A DNA stretch of 44,367 nucleotides from the NCBI GenBank assembly GCA_027858855.1, contig JAQIBV010000022.1, forward strand, positions 1-44,367, written 5' to 3'. This DNA comes from Spirochaetota bacterium (GTDB lineage: Bacteria; Spirochaetota; UBA4802; JAFGJZ01). Shown here piece by piece: positions 2 through 44,347 of this stretch. Position 1 is the stretch's first letter; each line of letters begins with the position of its first letter. The position numbers were made by a program, and so were the translations under genes. A model generated the notes under the pieces. It was not told the origin of the DNA. It ran no database searches and saw nothing but the letters and a program-made list of their open reading frames with translations.

Positions 2-241
2 GTTGATGGGGAGTACACTACTTTTGAGTTTAATACCAAGACTTATGATTACCGGATTGATGACACTCTTCTTACTTCTATACCAAAGAAGTTCAATACT
101 CCTGATGAACCCATGAATATGGGTACTTTTACCCCGGAACTTCGCTATGTCGGATATGAGGGCGGAAACAAGATCAGGTGTATTCGCTATCTTAATGATA
201 TTGAAGAACCCCTGGGAGAGTTTGTGTTTGAGAAAAAGTAG
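2..241 (+). CDS. 3' end of an unrecognised protein, cut by the window edge
   Basis: An open frame runs from the first bases to a TAG at 239-241, giving the last 79 residues of a protein. The frame has no obvious start and enters from outside. The fragment is rich in Tyr, Thr, Glu and Lys and soluble-looking, with no motif I recognise. It is followed by a palindrome and a strong promoter, so it is probably the last gene of its transcript. If the molecule is circular it could belong with the replication region at the far end, but joining the two window ends does not produce an obvious start codon, so some sequence is probably missing. Confidence 0.55.
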   Translation, partial: VDGEYTTFEFNTKTYDYRIDDTLLTSIPKKFNTPDEPMNMGTFTPELRYVGYEGGNKIRCIRYLNDIEEPLGEFVFEKK

Positions 242-8788: not shown

Positions 8789-8822
8789 AGTTTAAAGACT
8801 TTCAATAGCCAGGGAGATGGAA

Positions 8823-9557
8823 ATGAACCACAGCTTTAACGTAGAAATAGCAAAGAATTATGGTATCGAGGAAGCAGTTATTCTTGAAAACCTCTATTTC
8901 TGGATATCAAAAAACAAAGCTAATGATACAAACAAATATGATGGCCATTACTGGACATATAACAGTATTAACGCTTTTCAAGAGCTATTCCCATATATGT
9001 CTGTATCCAAAATTAGAAGGGTACTGGAAAAGTTAGAAAATGAAGGTTTGGTCATAACCGGAAACTACAACAAAATAGCGTATGATCGAACAAAGTGGTA
9101 TGCCTTAACGACAAAAGCACTTTCCATTTATGACAATTCCATTTGTCAAAATGAACAAATCGAAAAGCCGAAATCGACAAATCAATTTGCTGTAGGTGAC
9201 GAACCTATACCAGATATAAACACAGATATAAACACAGATATAAACCAGATAAGAGAGGCGCCCCCGAAAAAGAAATTCGTTCCTCCTAAACAACACGAAG
9301 TTGATGAATACATCAGAGAGTTAAAAAACAACGGTCATGTAGTAACCTTTACTGCAGAAACCTTTATTAATTCGTATGAGTCAAAAGGATGGATGGTCGG
9401 GAAAAACAAAATGAAGAATTGGAAAGCTGCAATTCGAACATGGCTCAATAGACAGGATTATTTTTCTGGGAATTCGGCTATACCTCAACAAAGACAGTTA
9501 CAAAGTTTTGAGGAAAAAGCAGCTGAATTTCACAAACTTTACGGAGGTATAAAATGA
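8823..9557 (+). CDS. Phage replication initiator-like protein (winged helix, DnaD-like group)
   Basis: The N-terminal about 105 residues (NHSFNVEIAKNYGIEEAVIL, then a FWISKNKAN segment and the wing region SVSKIRRVLEKLENEGLV) match the winged-helix domain of phage replisome-organiser proteins. A linker with DINT repeats follows, then a C-terminal helical domain with a YESKGWMVGK/NWKAAIRTW pattern resembling the DnaD C-terminal motif. Such proteins bind the phage origin, often inside their own gene, and recruit the helicase loader. ATG 8823 is preferred to ATG 8817 because AGGGAG (8811-8816) is correctly spaced only from 8823. The following gene overlaps its stop (ATGA) and may be the loader. 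Confidence 0.75.
   Translation: MNHSFNVEIAKNYGIEEAVILENLYFWISKNKANDTNKYDGHYWTYNSINAFQELFPYMSVSKIRRVLEKLENEGLVITGNYNKIAYDRTKWYALTTKALSIYDNSICQNEQIEKPKSTNQFAVGDEPIPDINTDINTDINQIREAPPKKKFVPPKQHEVDEYIRELKNNGHVVTFTAETFINSYESKGWMVGKNKMKNWKAAIRTWLNRQDYFSGNSAIPQQRQLQSFEEKAAEFHKLYGGIK
9211..9246 (+). repeat. Three 12-bp direct repeats inside the initiator gene (possible origin)
   Basis: CAGATATAAACA is repeated at 9211, 9223 and 9235 (last base of the third differs), directly head to tail, encoding DINT units. Lambda O and related initiators bind iterons inside their own genes, so this is a candidate phage replication origin. The repeats could equally just encode a flexible linker. Confidence 0.5.
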
Positions 9558-12693: not shown

Positions 12694-12723
12694 ATAACCA
12701 TACTTAAGAAAAGGATGGTTGTT

Positions 12724-13509
12724 ATGAAAAAGTCAAATAAGGACATTACAAAAGAAAATCTTAAAAAAGTTGATGATCTTTTAAAAAACGTTAAGAACAT
12801 GAGTGATGATGATTATCAAGAATTTTTAAAAACGTGTTCTTTGTTCTATGAGTATTCGTTCTTCAATCAGGTTATTCTTTATTTTGCTGGTGCTACGAAT
12901 GTTAAAGGATTTCAGTCCTGGAAGAAAATCGGACGTACTGTTAAAAAAGGTGCAAAAGCGATATGGATATTAGCACCTGTTACATATACAGTTAAAGACG
13001 AAGCAACAGAAGAAGAAGAAAGACGAATAAGCCGCTTTAAATCTGTACCAGTCTTTGACATTGCCGATACAGAAGGTGAAGAATTACCATCACTTATGAC
13101 AGGTAAGACAGATATAAAACTTGAAACCGTTATTGATCTTGCCAAATGCTTAGGTCATGAAGTAGAAACACAAAATTTAAAATATGCGCTTGGTGGATAC
13201 ATTGATAAGACTGGAAGGATAGTGATAAATACTGTAAGACCAGAATGTGATCAGGTCGGAACTTTAATTCACGAATTAAGCCACGGCCTACTTAAACACC
13301 ATGAGCAAGAAGAGTTTAACCGCTCACTATGTGAACAAGAAGCAGAAACCTTAACATATCTTATATCACAGGCTTTAGGAATAGAGAGAAAATCAGAAGG
13401 TTATCTGAAAAACTGGACGATGACAGAATCAATAAAAAAGTCCATGAAGTCTATTAACACCGCTTACAAAACATTTATGAATAAATACGAACAGGTCAGC
13501 CGGATATAA
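12724..13509 (+). CDS. ardC: ArdC-like antirestriction protein with zinc-peptidase motif
   Basis: 261 aa from ATG 12724, chosen because AAAAGG at 12709-12714 is too close to ATG 12715. The N-terminal domain (NQVILYFAGATNVKGFQSWK, then GRTVKKGAKAIWILAP) matches the ArdC ssDNA-binding domain. The C-terminal half carries HELSH (183-187) and downstream EQEAE (about 204-208), an HExxH zincin site as in ArdC/ImmA-type proteins. ArdC of plasmid pSa protects incoming single-stranded DNA from restriction, so this gene fits a plasmid-like mobile life. It has its own promoter, so it may be expressed early on entry. Confidence 0.8.
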   Translation: MKKSNKDITKENLKKVDDLLKNVKNMSDDDYQEFLKTCSLFYEYSFFNQVILYFAGATNVKGFQSWKKIGRTVKKGAKAIWILAPVTYTVKDEATEEEERRISRFKSVPVFDIADTEGEELPSLMTGKTDIKLETVIDLAKCLGHEVETQNLKYALGGYIDKTGRIVINTVRPECDQVGTLIHELSHGLLKHHEQEEFNRSLCEQEAETLTYLISQALGIERKSEGYLKNWTMTESIKKSMKSINTAYKTFMNKYEQVSRI

Positions 13510-14299: not shown

Positions 14300-14980
14300 A
14301 TGGTTGATTTATTTAAAGTTATCAAAAATATAGCAAATCAGACTGATGAGGCTATAATCATGTTTTCAGGAGGGAAGGATAGCATTGCTACTCTTGATCT
14401 CTGTATGTCATATCTAAATCCTAAGAAGTGCCGGATAGTTTACTGGTATTTTGTTAAAGGTCTACGCGTTAAAGAACAGTTCTTCAGGCATTACGAAAAA
14501 AGGTATGGCATTACAATAGAACAGGAGGCTCACCCTTCCCTCTCAGAGATGATGGCTAAAAACGTGTTTATGCATACTCAAAAAACGGTACCGATAGTAA
14601 GCATTGGCGATGGTGAAAACTATCTGCGGAAAAAATATGATATCTCATATTTGGCCTATGGATTCCGGAAAAATGAATCGTTACAAAGAAGAGGCCAGAT
14701 TTCCCAATGTAAAGGCTTTGACAAAGTACATAAGAAAATCTACCCGATAGGGGACTGGAATCATAATCATGTATTGAAGTACTTAAATCATCGAAAGCTG
14801 CCATTACCGGTTGAGTATTCTTACGGTTTTCGTGATATCAACTTTATATCTGGTGAGCCATTAATATGGTTGAAGCAGAATTACCCAGATGATTACGACC
14901 GGGTTAAAGAAGTATTCCCACTTATAGACGTGGAGTTAATGAGGGCATATGAGCAACAAAACACAAAAGTCAGTAATTGA
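14300..14980 (+). CDS. PAPS reductase-like ATP pyrophosphatase (IbrA-like)
   Basis: 226 aa with the PP-loop SGGKDS at residues 23-28, which binds the phosphates of ATP or PAPS in PAPS reductases, tRNA thiolases and DndC. It lacks the CxxC-type cysteine clusters of DndC; only isolated cysteines occur (about positions 35, 44 and 138). The partner gene at 14949 overlaps by 32 nt and encodes a ParB/Srx-fold protein. This pair is known in phages and as IbrA/IbrB of Escherichia coli prophages, where it changes gene expression by an unclear mechanism. Its role beside the terminase is unknown. Confidence 0.75.
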   Translation: MVDLFKVIKNIANQTDEAIIMFSGGKDSIATLDLCMSYLNPKKCRIVYWYFVKGLRVKEQFFRHYEKRYGITIEQEAHPSLSEMMAKNVFMHTQKTVPIVSIGDGENYLRKKYDISYLAYGFRKNESLQRRGQISQCKGFDKVHKKIYPIGDWNHNHVLKYLNHRKLPLPVEYSYGFRDINFISGEPLIWLKQNYPDDYDRVKEVFPLIDVELMRAYEQQNTKVSN

Positions 14981-40249: not shown

Positions 40250-41146
40250 CTATTTGGGATCGTTAATATCGTATTCGTGCCTAATATAATCGAGATATTT
40301 TATAATGATTTTATAATACTTCTGTCTTTGTTTGGGTGTTGCGCTTTCAAATAAAGCCTTCATTACAACAGTTAGTTCGTAAACAGCCTTTTCTCTGGTT
40401 TTCTTGACAACACTGTTTTTTTCGTAGTTTTCGACAAAGGCCGCTTTATTCAGAAGATCAAAAGTGCAAATATCCGGTTGTTCTATGTGTTGGAAAGTAT
40501 TTCTGAATCTAGCCTTAATTGAATCACTTGCAAGATCATATTGTTCTTTCATTGTTAAAGCAAGTTCTTCAAGTTCTGTGTCAGAATATTTCGTGGCTTT
40601 CTTTTGAGGTTGTTTATCTGGTATGGGCTTAATTTGTCGAGTTTTCCCATCTTTTCCGGTTCGTTTGGCTGAACTGTCCAGTTTGGACAGTTGCTGTAAT
40701 CCTTTCCTTTTAGTGCCGACTGTTGTAGGACTTGCACTGAATTTTTCTGCAATTGCTCGATCTGATCGTGTAGGATTTTTTTCAAGCTCTCTTTCTATCA
40801 ATTTAGATTTTTGAGCCCGAGTAAGGTGTCTGCGATTGAGATTATCGTCAATGCAGAACTGCTCTCGTAAATTCATGGCAAGATCATCGAGCAATTCCAC
40901 TTTAACTTTCTTTATCCCTAATTCTTTGGCAATATTGAGTCTATTCGCTCCGGCAAGGATATAAACGGCTTTACTAATACTATAACCTTTAAGTGGTTCT
41001 CGGATTCCATGCTTTTTAATATCTAATTTGAGATTATAATAATCGGTATCACCCATGGGCATCATGCCCTGGACGTTTTGTAGTTCTTCTGATATTCGTA
41101 TTTTTTCAACCGGTAGTTCAATTATTTGTCCGGTTCTGTCACTCAT
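40250..41146 (-). CDS. ParB-like partition/regulator protein
   Basis: 298 aa on the minus strand. The N-terminal part (IELPVEKIRISEELQ, then AVYILAGANRLNIAKELGIK) is a ParB/Srx nucleotide-binding domain with the usual GERR box changed to GANR. The middle has an HTH (SDRAIAEKFSASPTTVGTKR at about 130) as in true ParB. The C-terminal about 90 residues are helical and could dimerise. It is divergent from parA, 257 bp away, an unusual arrangement since parA-parB are normally one operon. It may act as a centromere-binding protein or as a regulator of the divergent region. Confidence 0.7.
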   Translation of the reverse strand: MSDRTGQIIELPVEKIRISEELQNVQGMMPMGDTDYYNLKLDIKKHGIREPLKGYSISKAVYILAGANRLNIAKELGIKKVKVELLDDLAMNLREQFCIDDNLNRRHLTRAQKSKLIERELEKNPTRSDRAIAEKFSASPTTVGTKRKGLQQLSKLDSSAKRTGKDGKTRQIKPIPDKQPQKKATKYSDTELEELALTMKEQYDLASDSIKARFRNTFQHIEQPDICTFDLLNKAAFVENYEKNSVVKKTREKAVYELTVVMKALFESATPKQRQKYYKIIIKYLDYIRHEYDINDPK

Positions 41147-41258: not shown

Positions 41259-41269
41259 AATGAGACATA
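41259..41269 (+). repeat. AATGAGACATA repeat, copy 1 (parA-parB gap)
   Basis: First of four exact 11-bp copies in the partition/replication region (others at 41353, 42990, 43406). Here and at 42990 the context also agrees: GTATMC...CTAATGAGACATA and a nearby AATTAATATT. Located between the divergent parB-like and parA genes. Candidate centromere, iteron or operator. Confidence 0.7.
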
Positions 41270-41352: not shown

Positions 41353-41363
41353 AATGAGACATA
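41353..41363 (+). repeat. AATGAGACATA repeat, copy 2 (parA upstream)
   Basis: Exact copy whose first base overlaps a TTGACA box (41348-41353) 51 bp upstream of the parA start. No convincing -10 is spaced to that box, so it may not be a promoter. A protein bound here would lie across the parA control region. Confidence 0.7.
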
Positions 41364-42989: not shown

Positions 42990-43000
42990 AATGAGACATA
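42990..43000 (+). repeat. AATGAGACATA repeat, copy 3 (before the RHH promoter)
   Basis: Exact copy 17 bp upstream of the -35 box at 43017. Context CTCTAATGAGACATATTTT... then AATTAATATT agrees with copy 1 except for an about 8-base T insertion. Confidence 0.7.
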
Positions 43001-43016
43001 TTTTTTTTAATTAATA

Positions 43017-43043
43017 TTGACATTAATAAGACGGTAGTATTAC
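43017..43043 (+). promoter_or_regulatory. Promoter of the RHH gene
   Basis: TTGACA (43017-43022) and TATTAC (43038-43043) with a 15-bp spacer, 38 bp upstream of the ATG. Spacer is short, so strength is doubtful. GAGGGGT at 43057 lies too far for a normal ribosome site; the effective one may be ACAGGCG. Confidence 0.5.
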
Positions 43044-43080
43044 TCTGGTCTTACTTGAGGGGTACAGGCGACATATTAAT

Positions 43081-43260
43081 ATGAAGAAAATTACAGTCAC
43101 GATCAAAGACTCACATAAAGACTATCTCGATCACATGAAAGAAGTCGATCCTGATTATAATGTTTCGGAATATTTCCGCCGGTTCCTTGACGAGCAATTA
43201 TCCGGAGACGAATGGTATAATGATTACTTAAAAAAGCGAAAAGATACTCTTTTAGAGTAA
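43081..43260 (+). CDS. CopG-like ribbon-helix-helix protein
   Basis: 59 aa. The start KKITVTIKDS is a single strand of the type that inserts into the major groove, then a helix (HKDYLDHMKEV) and NVSEYFRRFLDEQL form helix-turn-helix B of an RHH fold. Acidic tail. Its position before a minus-strand RNA and a large gene resembles copG of pMV158-type plasmids, where CopG represses the copG-rep promoter to fix copy number. That role is inferred from gene order. Confidence 0.75.
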   Translation: MKKITVTIKDSHKDYLDHMKEVDPDYNVSEYFRRFLDEQLSGDEWYNDYLKKRKDTLLE

Positions 43261-43262
43261 GT

Positions 43263-43343
43263 AATAAAAAACCCCAAAGCTGGTAACTTTGAGGTTTTAT
43301 TCTGGTGCTGGTAACACCAAAGATTGACAAAATTTGTTTTGGT
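43263..43343 (-). ncRNA. Minus-strand antisense RNA candidate (about 80 nt)
   Basis: From a TSS near 43343 the minus strand makes two hairpins with the same 7-nt loop UUACCAG: 43319-43303 (TGGTG/CACCA) and 43298-43268. The second forms CCTCAAAG/CTTTGGGG fully paired with one U-G, followed by TTTTTTATT, a proper intrinsic terminator. On the + strand this stem has a C-A mismatch, so the terminator works best for the minus RNA. It is antisense to the leader between the RHH and rep-like genes, as RNA II is in pMV158. The sense loops CUGGUAA hold the U-turn pattern YUNR (CUGG) known from antisense recognition loops. Confidence 0.7.
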
Positions 43344-43349
43344 AAAATT

Positions 43350-43378
43350 AATGTACCGAAGTGGTATCGGTGCGTCAA
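43350..43378 (-). promoter_or_regulatory. Promoter of the minus-strand RNA
   Basis: Read on the minus strand, TTGACG (43378-43373), exactly 17 bp, then TACATT (43355-43350): a strong sigma-70-like promoter with no ORF downstream. The spacer contains a 5-bp inverted repeat (ACCGA 43355-43359 / TCGGT 43367-43371). Confidence 0.75.
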
Positions 43379-43405
43379 CTAATATTTTTTATTTTTCTAT
43401 GTTTT

Positions 43406-43416
43406 AATGAGACATA
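43406..43416 (+). repeat. AATGAGACATA repeat, copy 4 (before the rep-like gene)
   Basis: Exact copy between the minus-strand promoter and the rep-like gene, 53 bp upstream of its start. Repeats around both the control genes and the rep gene fit iterons or operators. Confidence 0.7.
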
Positions 43417-43446
43417 AGAAAAGTGTCATCTTGCCGTGTGATCCAG

Positions 43447-43463
43447 CACCTGTAAATCAGGTG
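43447..43463 (+). promoter_or_regulatory. Hairpin hiding the ribosome site of the rep-like gene
   Basis: CACCTG (43447-43452), loop TAAAT, CAGGTG (43458-43463). The 3' arm contains AGGTG, the only ribosome site at proper distance (5 nt) from GTG 43469, so the folded leader should lower translation. Confidence 0.6.
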
Positions 43464-43468
43464 TTAGG

Positions 43469-44347
43469 GTGCGATACAACAAACAAATAATTCGCCATCT
43501 CCTAAAAACTTCGGGCAAGAAGTCTATCAAGATCGATTACTTCTTGTATTGTGTGTGCAGACTTGAGTTTGCCAAACGTTCCGGATTGTTTAATATTGAT
43601 GATTTGGTTACTGTACTTCATGAAAAGTATGGTTTCAAGTCATTACATAATCGTCCAGGCAACGCCAAGGCCTGTTATAGGGAGAAGTATCTTAACCGTT
43701 TACGAAAATCCGTTTTGTTTACCGCAATAAACGAATCAACTTTCCGCTTTAACTCACAGAAAAAAATATTACGCCTTATCAACAAGCATTTTTGTACTGA
43801 AGGTATAGAGATTGATCCCGTTACACTCCAGAATCGAAAAGATTTCGTGAATATAGTATTAGGTCAGTACATGGATGGTAGCAGGTTTAAAGGTTATAAG
43901 AAGATGTCGGAAGAGACCGGCTTCTCTATGACTCGAATATTTGATGCAGCAAAGTCTAACCATGAAAACGGCTATGTCCAAAAACAAAATAATTTCATCC
44001 TGTACACTACAGAATCATTCCGAACTAAGAAGCTGGCCGACTGGGTTAGGGCGGAGTTCTGGAAGTACCATCGCATATTTACACCTGAACCGGTTAGAAT
44101 CGGTCGGGAATTTTATATATTGCTTTACGCACCCAATTCTTATTGCTCAAAAAACGTTGATCAAAGGCTAAACAGGCGACCGAATCAACCAATCTTTGAT
44201 AATAATAAGAGCTGGCTTAAGAATATAGACTCAAAATTCCGTAATTCCTATCGTATTCCTGATAATATCTATATGGTGAATGATTCCGTATTTTCGTTAT
44301 CAGACTATTTCAGCAACTACGGGGAGGCTAACTATAAGGCTTGTTAA
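43469..44347 (+). CDS. Unrecognised 292-aa protein, candidate plasmid replication initiator
   Basis: From GTG 43469 to TAA 44347. Basic, aromatic protein with helical N-terminal region (KTSGKKSIKIDYFLYCVCRL), a likely HTH at about residues 141-165 (GYKKMSEETGFSMTRIFDAA), and a C-terminal basic domain (RLNRRPNQP). It shows neither the HUH tyrosine motifs of rolling-circle Reps nor a clear RepA winged-helix pair, so it does not fit a known Rep family by eye. Evidence for a Rep role is context: CopG-like gene, antisense RNA, sequestered ribosome site, repeats and partition genes. The window ends 20 nt after the stop. Confidence 0.55.
   Translation: MRYNKQIIRHLLKTSGKKSIKIDYFLYCVCRLEFAKRSGLFNIDDLVTVLHEKYGFKSLHNRPGNAKACYREKYLNRLRKSVLFTAINESTFRFNSQKKILRLINKHFCTEGIEIDPVTLQNRKDFVNIVLGQYMDGSRFKGYKKMSEETGFSMTRIFDAAKSNHENGYVQKQNNFILYTTESFRTKKLADWVRAEFWKYHRIFTPEPVRIGREFYILLYAPNSYCSKNVDQRLNRRPNQPIFDNNKSWLKNIDSKFRNSYRIPDNIYMVNDSVFSLSDYFSNYGEANYKAC

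Follow-up and report, generated by a model that had tools for sequence, protein, structure and literature searches.

A candidate maintenance replicon of a spirochaete phage-plasmid with a predicted antisense RNA opposite the rep leader

In plasmid ColIb-P9, a leader pseudoknot frees the ribosome site of rep, an antisense RNA competes with this pairing, and the leader encodes a translated peptide, repY. Plasmids pT181 and pIP501 are controlled by antisense RNA through transcription attenuation in a long leader. In the I-complex plasmids, the bases of the loop decide specificity, as for IncK1 and IncK2 (PMC10724649). Plasmid pMV158 carries copG, the terminator-bearing antisense RNAII and repB in this order (PMC4485353, PMC5717011), and in R1/IncFII the repressor gene copB is cotranscribed with repA, with the antisense RNA CopA lying between them (PMC5717011). 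Among spirochaetes, the contractile-tailed phages LE1, LE3 and LE4 and related circular prophage plasmids have been described (PMC6078989), and Leptospira replicons with the order parA-parB-rep have been experimentally tested (PMC4338851). Our literature search found nothing on plasmid replication in the spirochaete order considered here. The locus analysed below had originally been predicted to hold a pMV158-like double brake, consisting of a ribbon-helix-helix (RHH) protein and an antisense RNA, which would limit a Rep belonging to no known family in a phage-plasmid.

A phage contig with partition genes and a rep candidate

The window, 44,367 bp in length, is the whole of one contig (G000:C48) of a MAG from an order of Spirochaetota; its relatives that bear names are Spirochaetae bacterium HGW-Spirochaetae-5 and a 'Spirochaetia bacterium'. 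The window encodes a RecT/exonuclease module as well as terminase, portal, head, tape-measure and baseplate proteins, and no integrase was present among the about 40 phage proteins scanned. In its uncultured spirochaete host, the phage seems to be maintained as a plasmid, and the contig is likely a circle. Against this counts the absence of a terminal overlap and the position of the left end, which cuts an ORF of 79 aa, so that the contig lacks one gene at least in part. The DnaD/O-like gene represents a second initiator, suggesting that the lytic and plasmid initiators are separate in this phage, with the DnaD/O-like protein probably serving lytic growth. The features of the window are listed in Table 1.

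Table 1. Features of the window, their positions and strands, and the match or source on which each call is based
Feature	Position	Strand	Match, source or remark
79-aa ORF	2-241		cut by contig start
DnaD/O-like initiator	8817-9557		phrog_11233, 2.5e-41
ArdC-like anti-restriction gene	12715-13509		early region
PAPS-reductase-like gene	14300-14980		early region
ParB-N protein	40250-41146
Motif AATGAGACATA, four copies	41259-41269, 41353-41363, 42990..43000, 43406-43416	+
parA, 249 aa	41404..42153	+	AAA_31, 1.5e-44; phrog_164 ParA, 2.9e-51
ParB-like partner gene, 258 aa	42140..42916	+	overlaps parA
Possible sense promoter TTGACA ... TATTAC, 15-nt spacer	43017..43043	+	for 59-aa gene and rep; read from sequence
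59-aa ORF	43081..43260	+	ribbon-helix-helix-like by eye
Predicted antisense RNA, ~80 nt, two hairpins	43264..43343	-	z -4.26; covariance-model match 67 bits
Antisense RNA terminator hairpin, 14-pair stem, loop UUACCAG	43268..43298	-	terminator scan
Hairpin 1, GGTG-CTGGTAA-CACC on +	43304..43318		contains predicted activating segment A, GGTGCTGG (43304-43311)
Antisense promoter TTGACG-17-TACATT	43350..43378	-	promoter scan
Ribosome-site hairpin, CACCTG/CAGGTG	43443..43471	+	5' arm CCAGCACC (43443-43450); GTG start at 43469
292-aa Rep candidate, GTG start	43469..44347	+	homologs on plasmid-like contigs

The window ParA is 36% identical to the ParA of a plasmid contig from another MAG of the order (C112 of G039). 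Its ParB-like partner belongs to no Pfam family but is akin to the gene beside ParA on that same contig (E 2e-7), and an IMG/VR scan with ParB returned no relative. Downstream of these genes, the 59-aa ORF lies where it had been predicted. As for its putative RHH identity, a strand-helix-helix pattern can be seen by eye, but no family matched (Pfam RHH and PHROGs included), no homolog was found in 58 related genomes, and the ORF is absent from every relative of the rep gene. The RHH assignment is thus the weakest part of the original prediction, and the postulated double brake falls outside the conserved core. In the window, the 59-aa protein may act as an added transcriptional repressor. The promoter scan missed the possible sense promoter owing to its short spacer.

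The antisense cassette and the relatives of rep

The other parts named in the original prediction, the minus-strand promoter, RNA and terminator and the 292-aa gene, also lie in their described places. The promoter that had been called strong is present as a motif, but its score (9/12) is not above chance, with six such sites found by score and 2.7 expected. The fold of the 80-nt RNA, at -24.6 kcal/mol (z -4.26), is above chance, and two terminator-like sites were found in the scan, compared with 0.2 expected in shuffles; a minus-strand RNA of about 80 nt ending in a proper terminator is therefore borne out as a sequence feature. The shared loop was likewise recovered: UUACCAG is present in both hairpins of the antisense RNA, and CUGGUAA occurs twice on the sense strand (GCTGGTAAC at 43279 and 43307). 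An Rfam search gave nothing near gathering scores. What lifts the cassette above chance is its conservation: in four relatives, promoter, hairpin and terminator recur ahead of the homolog of the 292-aa gene.

The rep gene was detected in 4 of 393 whole genomes of the phylum, all from the same order. Its relatives are located on three small par-bearing contigs of 17.7, 30.4 and 42 kb, of which one is circular-like, and also occur as chromosomal relics. In G039, the 42-kb contig C238 carries rep with ParA and a partition-like gene, the 30.4-kb contig C112 combines rep, ParA and a ParB-like gene, and C248 carries a truncated copy beside flagellar genes. On the 17.7-kb contig C46 of G009, rep is accompanied by a ParB-like gene which shares 39% identity with the ParB-N gene of the window across 154 residues. 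Both ends of C112 fall inside rep, and relative to C238 about 110 bp are absent, as would result from breaking a circle at a repeat. This likely circular plasmid of 30.5 kb (L021, L009) also carries copper-resistance and helicase/nuclease defence-like genes.

The rep genes of C238 and C112 differ synonymously at 28 codons and non-synonymously at 2 (dN 0.009, dS 0.30), and the dN/dS of about 0.03 between these two plasmid copies indicates strong purifying selection. Taken with the par-bearing contigs and the circle signature of C112, this constraint makes a plasmid initiator the natural reading of the 292-aa protein, which would initiate replication.

Consistent with a Rep outside the known families, the 292-aa protein matched nothing in Pfam or PDB and nothing significant in PHROGs (best E 0.007), while tblastn searches of phage and plasmid collections with the Rep members and an IMG/VR scan with Rep gave no relative. 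It has no RepB match and no H-x-H (HUH) motif, and its invariant His 51, 60 and 201 are not in a HUH arrangement. The structure search proposed with the original prediction yielded a weak winged-helix signal and no match in PDB or Foldseek (at E 0.001 or better). The AlphaFold models were of low confidence (pLDDT 45 with the window sequence first and 54 with the G039 member first), which counts against our model. In the better one, the N-terminal half is helical and winged-helix-like, and VIA-align of residues 13-131 gave middling Z values (5-6) to MukE, the DnaD N-terminal domain and forkhead winged helices, a likeness that is no more than a hint and proves nothing.

A DNA-binding regulator of plasmid or phage, or a transposition protein, limited by the antisense RNA, rather than an initiator, would also match no known Rep, would fit a winged-helix signal that is common to many regulators, and, as a mobile protein, might leave the truncated copy and other relics in chromosomes. 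The intact copies, however, lie on par-bearing contigs, the copies showed no flanking repeat ends, and the window gene directly follows parAB, like the tested Leptospira rep genes (PMC4338851), so that we regard this possibility as very improbable. A transposon protein, raised by the dispersed copies in G039, was dropped in view of the par genes on two contigs and the circular-like ends of one.

The cassette and the gene occur together in all four leader-bearing relatives (C238, C112 and C248 of G039 and C46 of G009). Read in the window orientation, each leader contains a minus-strand promoter-like site, hairpin 1 and the terminator hairpin with its trailing U residues. Pairing of the stems is kept despite their different sequences (95.7% of cells paired), and sliding the alignment register destroys this pairing. 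Compensatory changes have altered 4 of 14 stem pairs on both sides, a value reached in none of 500 shuffles; this covariation, drawn from five sequences of which three are close, is supportive of the cassette, short of conclusive. With a covariance model, all cassettes found lay before rep genes except for two weaker sites. One of these two, at G011:C45:24822-24894 (L265 1500-1620; E 2.6e-4), is an orphan cassette with the same layout and no adjoining rep gene, and is probably a relic.

These conserved leaders also bear on a reading without any antisense RNA, in which the hairpins would be a two-way terminator and leader structure. Such a reading would accommodate a minus promoter that alone is no better than chance and the imperfect minus-strand -10 spacing of the G039 copies. 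It is scarcely credible given the near-consensus promoter in G009 (TTGACA-18-TATATT, 11/12) and the retention of the minus-strand hairpin/terminator cassette, with its U-run, in three lineages. The antisense RNA is presumably made. The recurrence of rep with the antisense cassette on several spirochaete plasmids points to a Rep family that is probably new and is controlled in a familiar manner.

Leader folding and the predicted control of rep

On balance, and with modest confidence, we favour a maintenance replicon of a phage-plasmid in which a counter-transcribed antisense RNA, acting on a segment-A switch, limits the expression of rep. The replicon would comprise parA, the parB-like gene, the small ORF and the antisense-limited rep gene. 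Upon folding of the rep leader, segment A (GGUGCUGG, lying within the sense copy of antisense hairpin 1) would pair with the 5' arm of the ribosome-site hairpin, freeing the ribosome site and allowing Rep to be made. The output of antisense RNA would be proportional to copy number, and its loops would bind segment A (UUACCAG on CUGGUAA); with segment A occupied, the ribosome hairpin would close and Rep synthesis would stop.

Folding of the window leader is consistent with such a switch. The ribosome site of the 292-aa gene indeed lies in a hairpin, as had been noted from the sequence. Segment A is perfectly complementary over 8 nt to the 5' arm of this hairpin (-14.4 kcal/mol; equalled in 5 of 500 shuffles), and TAACACC (43312-43318) is complementary to GGTGTTA (43460-43466) in the other arm. 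Since both halves of hairpin 1 match the ribosome-site arms, the 15-nt GGTGTTACCAGCACC is present there in permuted halves. The leader has alternative folds, in which the mean unpaired probability of the ribosome site decreases from 0.56 with the target free to 0.27 with the target occupied, and none of 200 shuffled targets produced a drop as large. When the target is occupied, the ribosome site is thus predicted to be locked in its hairpin, because the 8-nt leader segment otherwise frees it. Two results argue against the switch operating as we propose. In a longer transcript starting at the upstream promoter, the ribosome site is mostly hidden even with the target free, with A:B pairing at about 0.16. 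In addition, a switch of the window type was sought in the relatives and was absent, the accessibility of their ribosome sites being unchanged on target occupancy.

The leaders of the relatives bring in transcription attenuation following the logic of pT181/pIP501, in which antisense binding would let a leader terminator form before rep. Downstream of its target, the G009 leader contains AACACC...GGUGUU and then a U run, a canonical transcription attenuator; the 5' arm of this structure is able to pair with the GGGUGUU of the target. A long TTGAC/GTCAA stem is common to all leaders, and in the window GTCAAC is followed near 43380 by the T-rich tract AATATTTTTTATTTTT. However, the scan called no plus-strand intrinsic terminator in the window leader, and in the G039 leaders no run of T follows the corresponding hairpin; attenuation is, in our estimation, rather unlikely. 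The absence of the switch in the relatives and the terminator in G009 suggest that the family may use both attenuation and translational control.

The region also contains a repeated motif. All four copies of AATGAGACATA in the window lie on one strand between 41259 and 43416, where 0.14 would be expected, and AATGAGACATA / AATGNGACATAAAAAA occurs upstream of the rep leader in every relative. A scan of viral contigs for AATGNGACATAAAAAA gave matches that were mostly unrelated and due to chance. TAATGNGACATAA, noted at the same four window positions, was observed in 46 of 46 genomes of the order and is strongly enriched, with 324 copies compared with 41 for the reversed control. In the sampled loci it repeatedly lies before ftsZ, and also before rsmH, flgB, fliF, cheW, parA and other genes (named by eye from translations). 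TAATGNGACATAA resembles an operator of the host that the replicon has reused, possibly one of cell division and motility. A more far-reaching proposal would combine a new winged-helix initiator family, an antisense hairpin permuted at the ribosome site (CCAGCACC...GGTGTTA versus GGTGTTACCAGCACC) and a tie to the cell cycle through the operator TAATGNGACATAA; taken as a whole, we consider it unlikely.

The locus offers an unassigned Rep family and a testable RNA switch, and the minimal replicon, at about 41.2-44.4 kb, is a possible base for a shuttle vector in such bacteria. The locus also suggests how a phage-plasmid could hold a low, stable copy number and keep a second initiator for lytic growth. 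In addition, the terminator loops of the two plasmids within the single MAG G039 differ (CUGGACA versus CUGGUAA), which would fit a role of the loop in deciding compatibility like that in IncK1/IncK2, and makes this pair a ready test of loop-based compatibility.

Comparison with described replicons

In gene order (parA-parB-rep) and as a contractile-tailed spirochaete phage-plasmid, the window resembles the Leptospira elements LE1, LE4-like and lcp3. The original prediction had known of no such system in a phage with a contractile tail; contractile-tailed spirochaete phages living as plasmids are in fact described (LE1, LE4-like; PMC6078989). The 302-aa ORF of Leptospira LE4 and the Rep of lcp3 were rejected as homologs of the window Rep (hhalign probability 0.2% in each case), the parB-rep gap of lcp3 showed neither an antisense promoter nor a terminator, and the paper on the Leptospira replicons mentions no antisense control (PMC4338851).

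As in pMV158, a small gene is followed by a terminator-ended antisense RNA and then by rep, with the same strand logic, and this order is what speaks for a strict double brake (PMC4485353, PMC5717011), in which a CopG-like RHH protein would repress the copG-rep promoter and the RNA would directly block rep translation. In contrast to pMV158, however, the Rep is unrelated to RepB and lacks the HUH motif, and the 59-aa gene, RHH-like by eye only, is not conserved, no copG being present in any relative. Moreover, the window RNA has about 80 nt and two hairpins, whereas RNAII has 48 nt and one. About 125 nt separate the end of the window RNA's target from the rep start; the RNAII target, by contrast, directly precedes the initiation signals of repB. 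We therefore consider the strict pMV158 scheme improbable. What survives of the original prediction is a predicted antisense RNA opposite the leader of a rep gene outside the known families on a plasmid-like phage; the replicon would work similarly to pMV158 but is not a member of that family.

The position of the antisense RNA between a small gene and rep is also shared with copB-CopA-repA of R1/IncFII, with an unrelated Rep. With pT181/pIP501 the locus shares a long leader with mutually exclusive folds and, in G009, a terminator in the expected place; it differs from them in its unrelated Rep and in the lack of a called terminator in the window leader. In the I-complex plasmids (ColIb-P9, IncK, IncB/O), where the partners are RNAI/Inc and the rep mRNA, leader pairing frees the ribosome site and the antisense RNA competes, as is predicted here for the window only. 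The window differs from ColIb-P9 in that its Rep is unrelated and in that a one-step pairing is predicted rather than a proven pseudoknot. Based on the modelled folds, the RNA logic of the window would resemble that of ColIb-P9/IncI more closely than that of pMV158.
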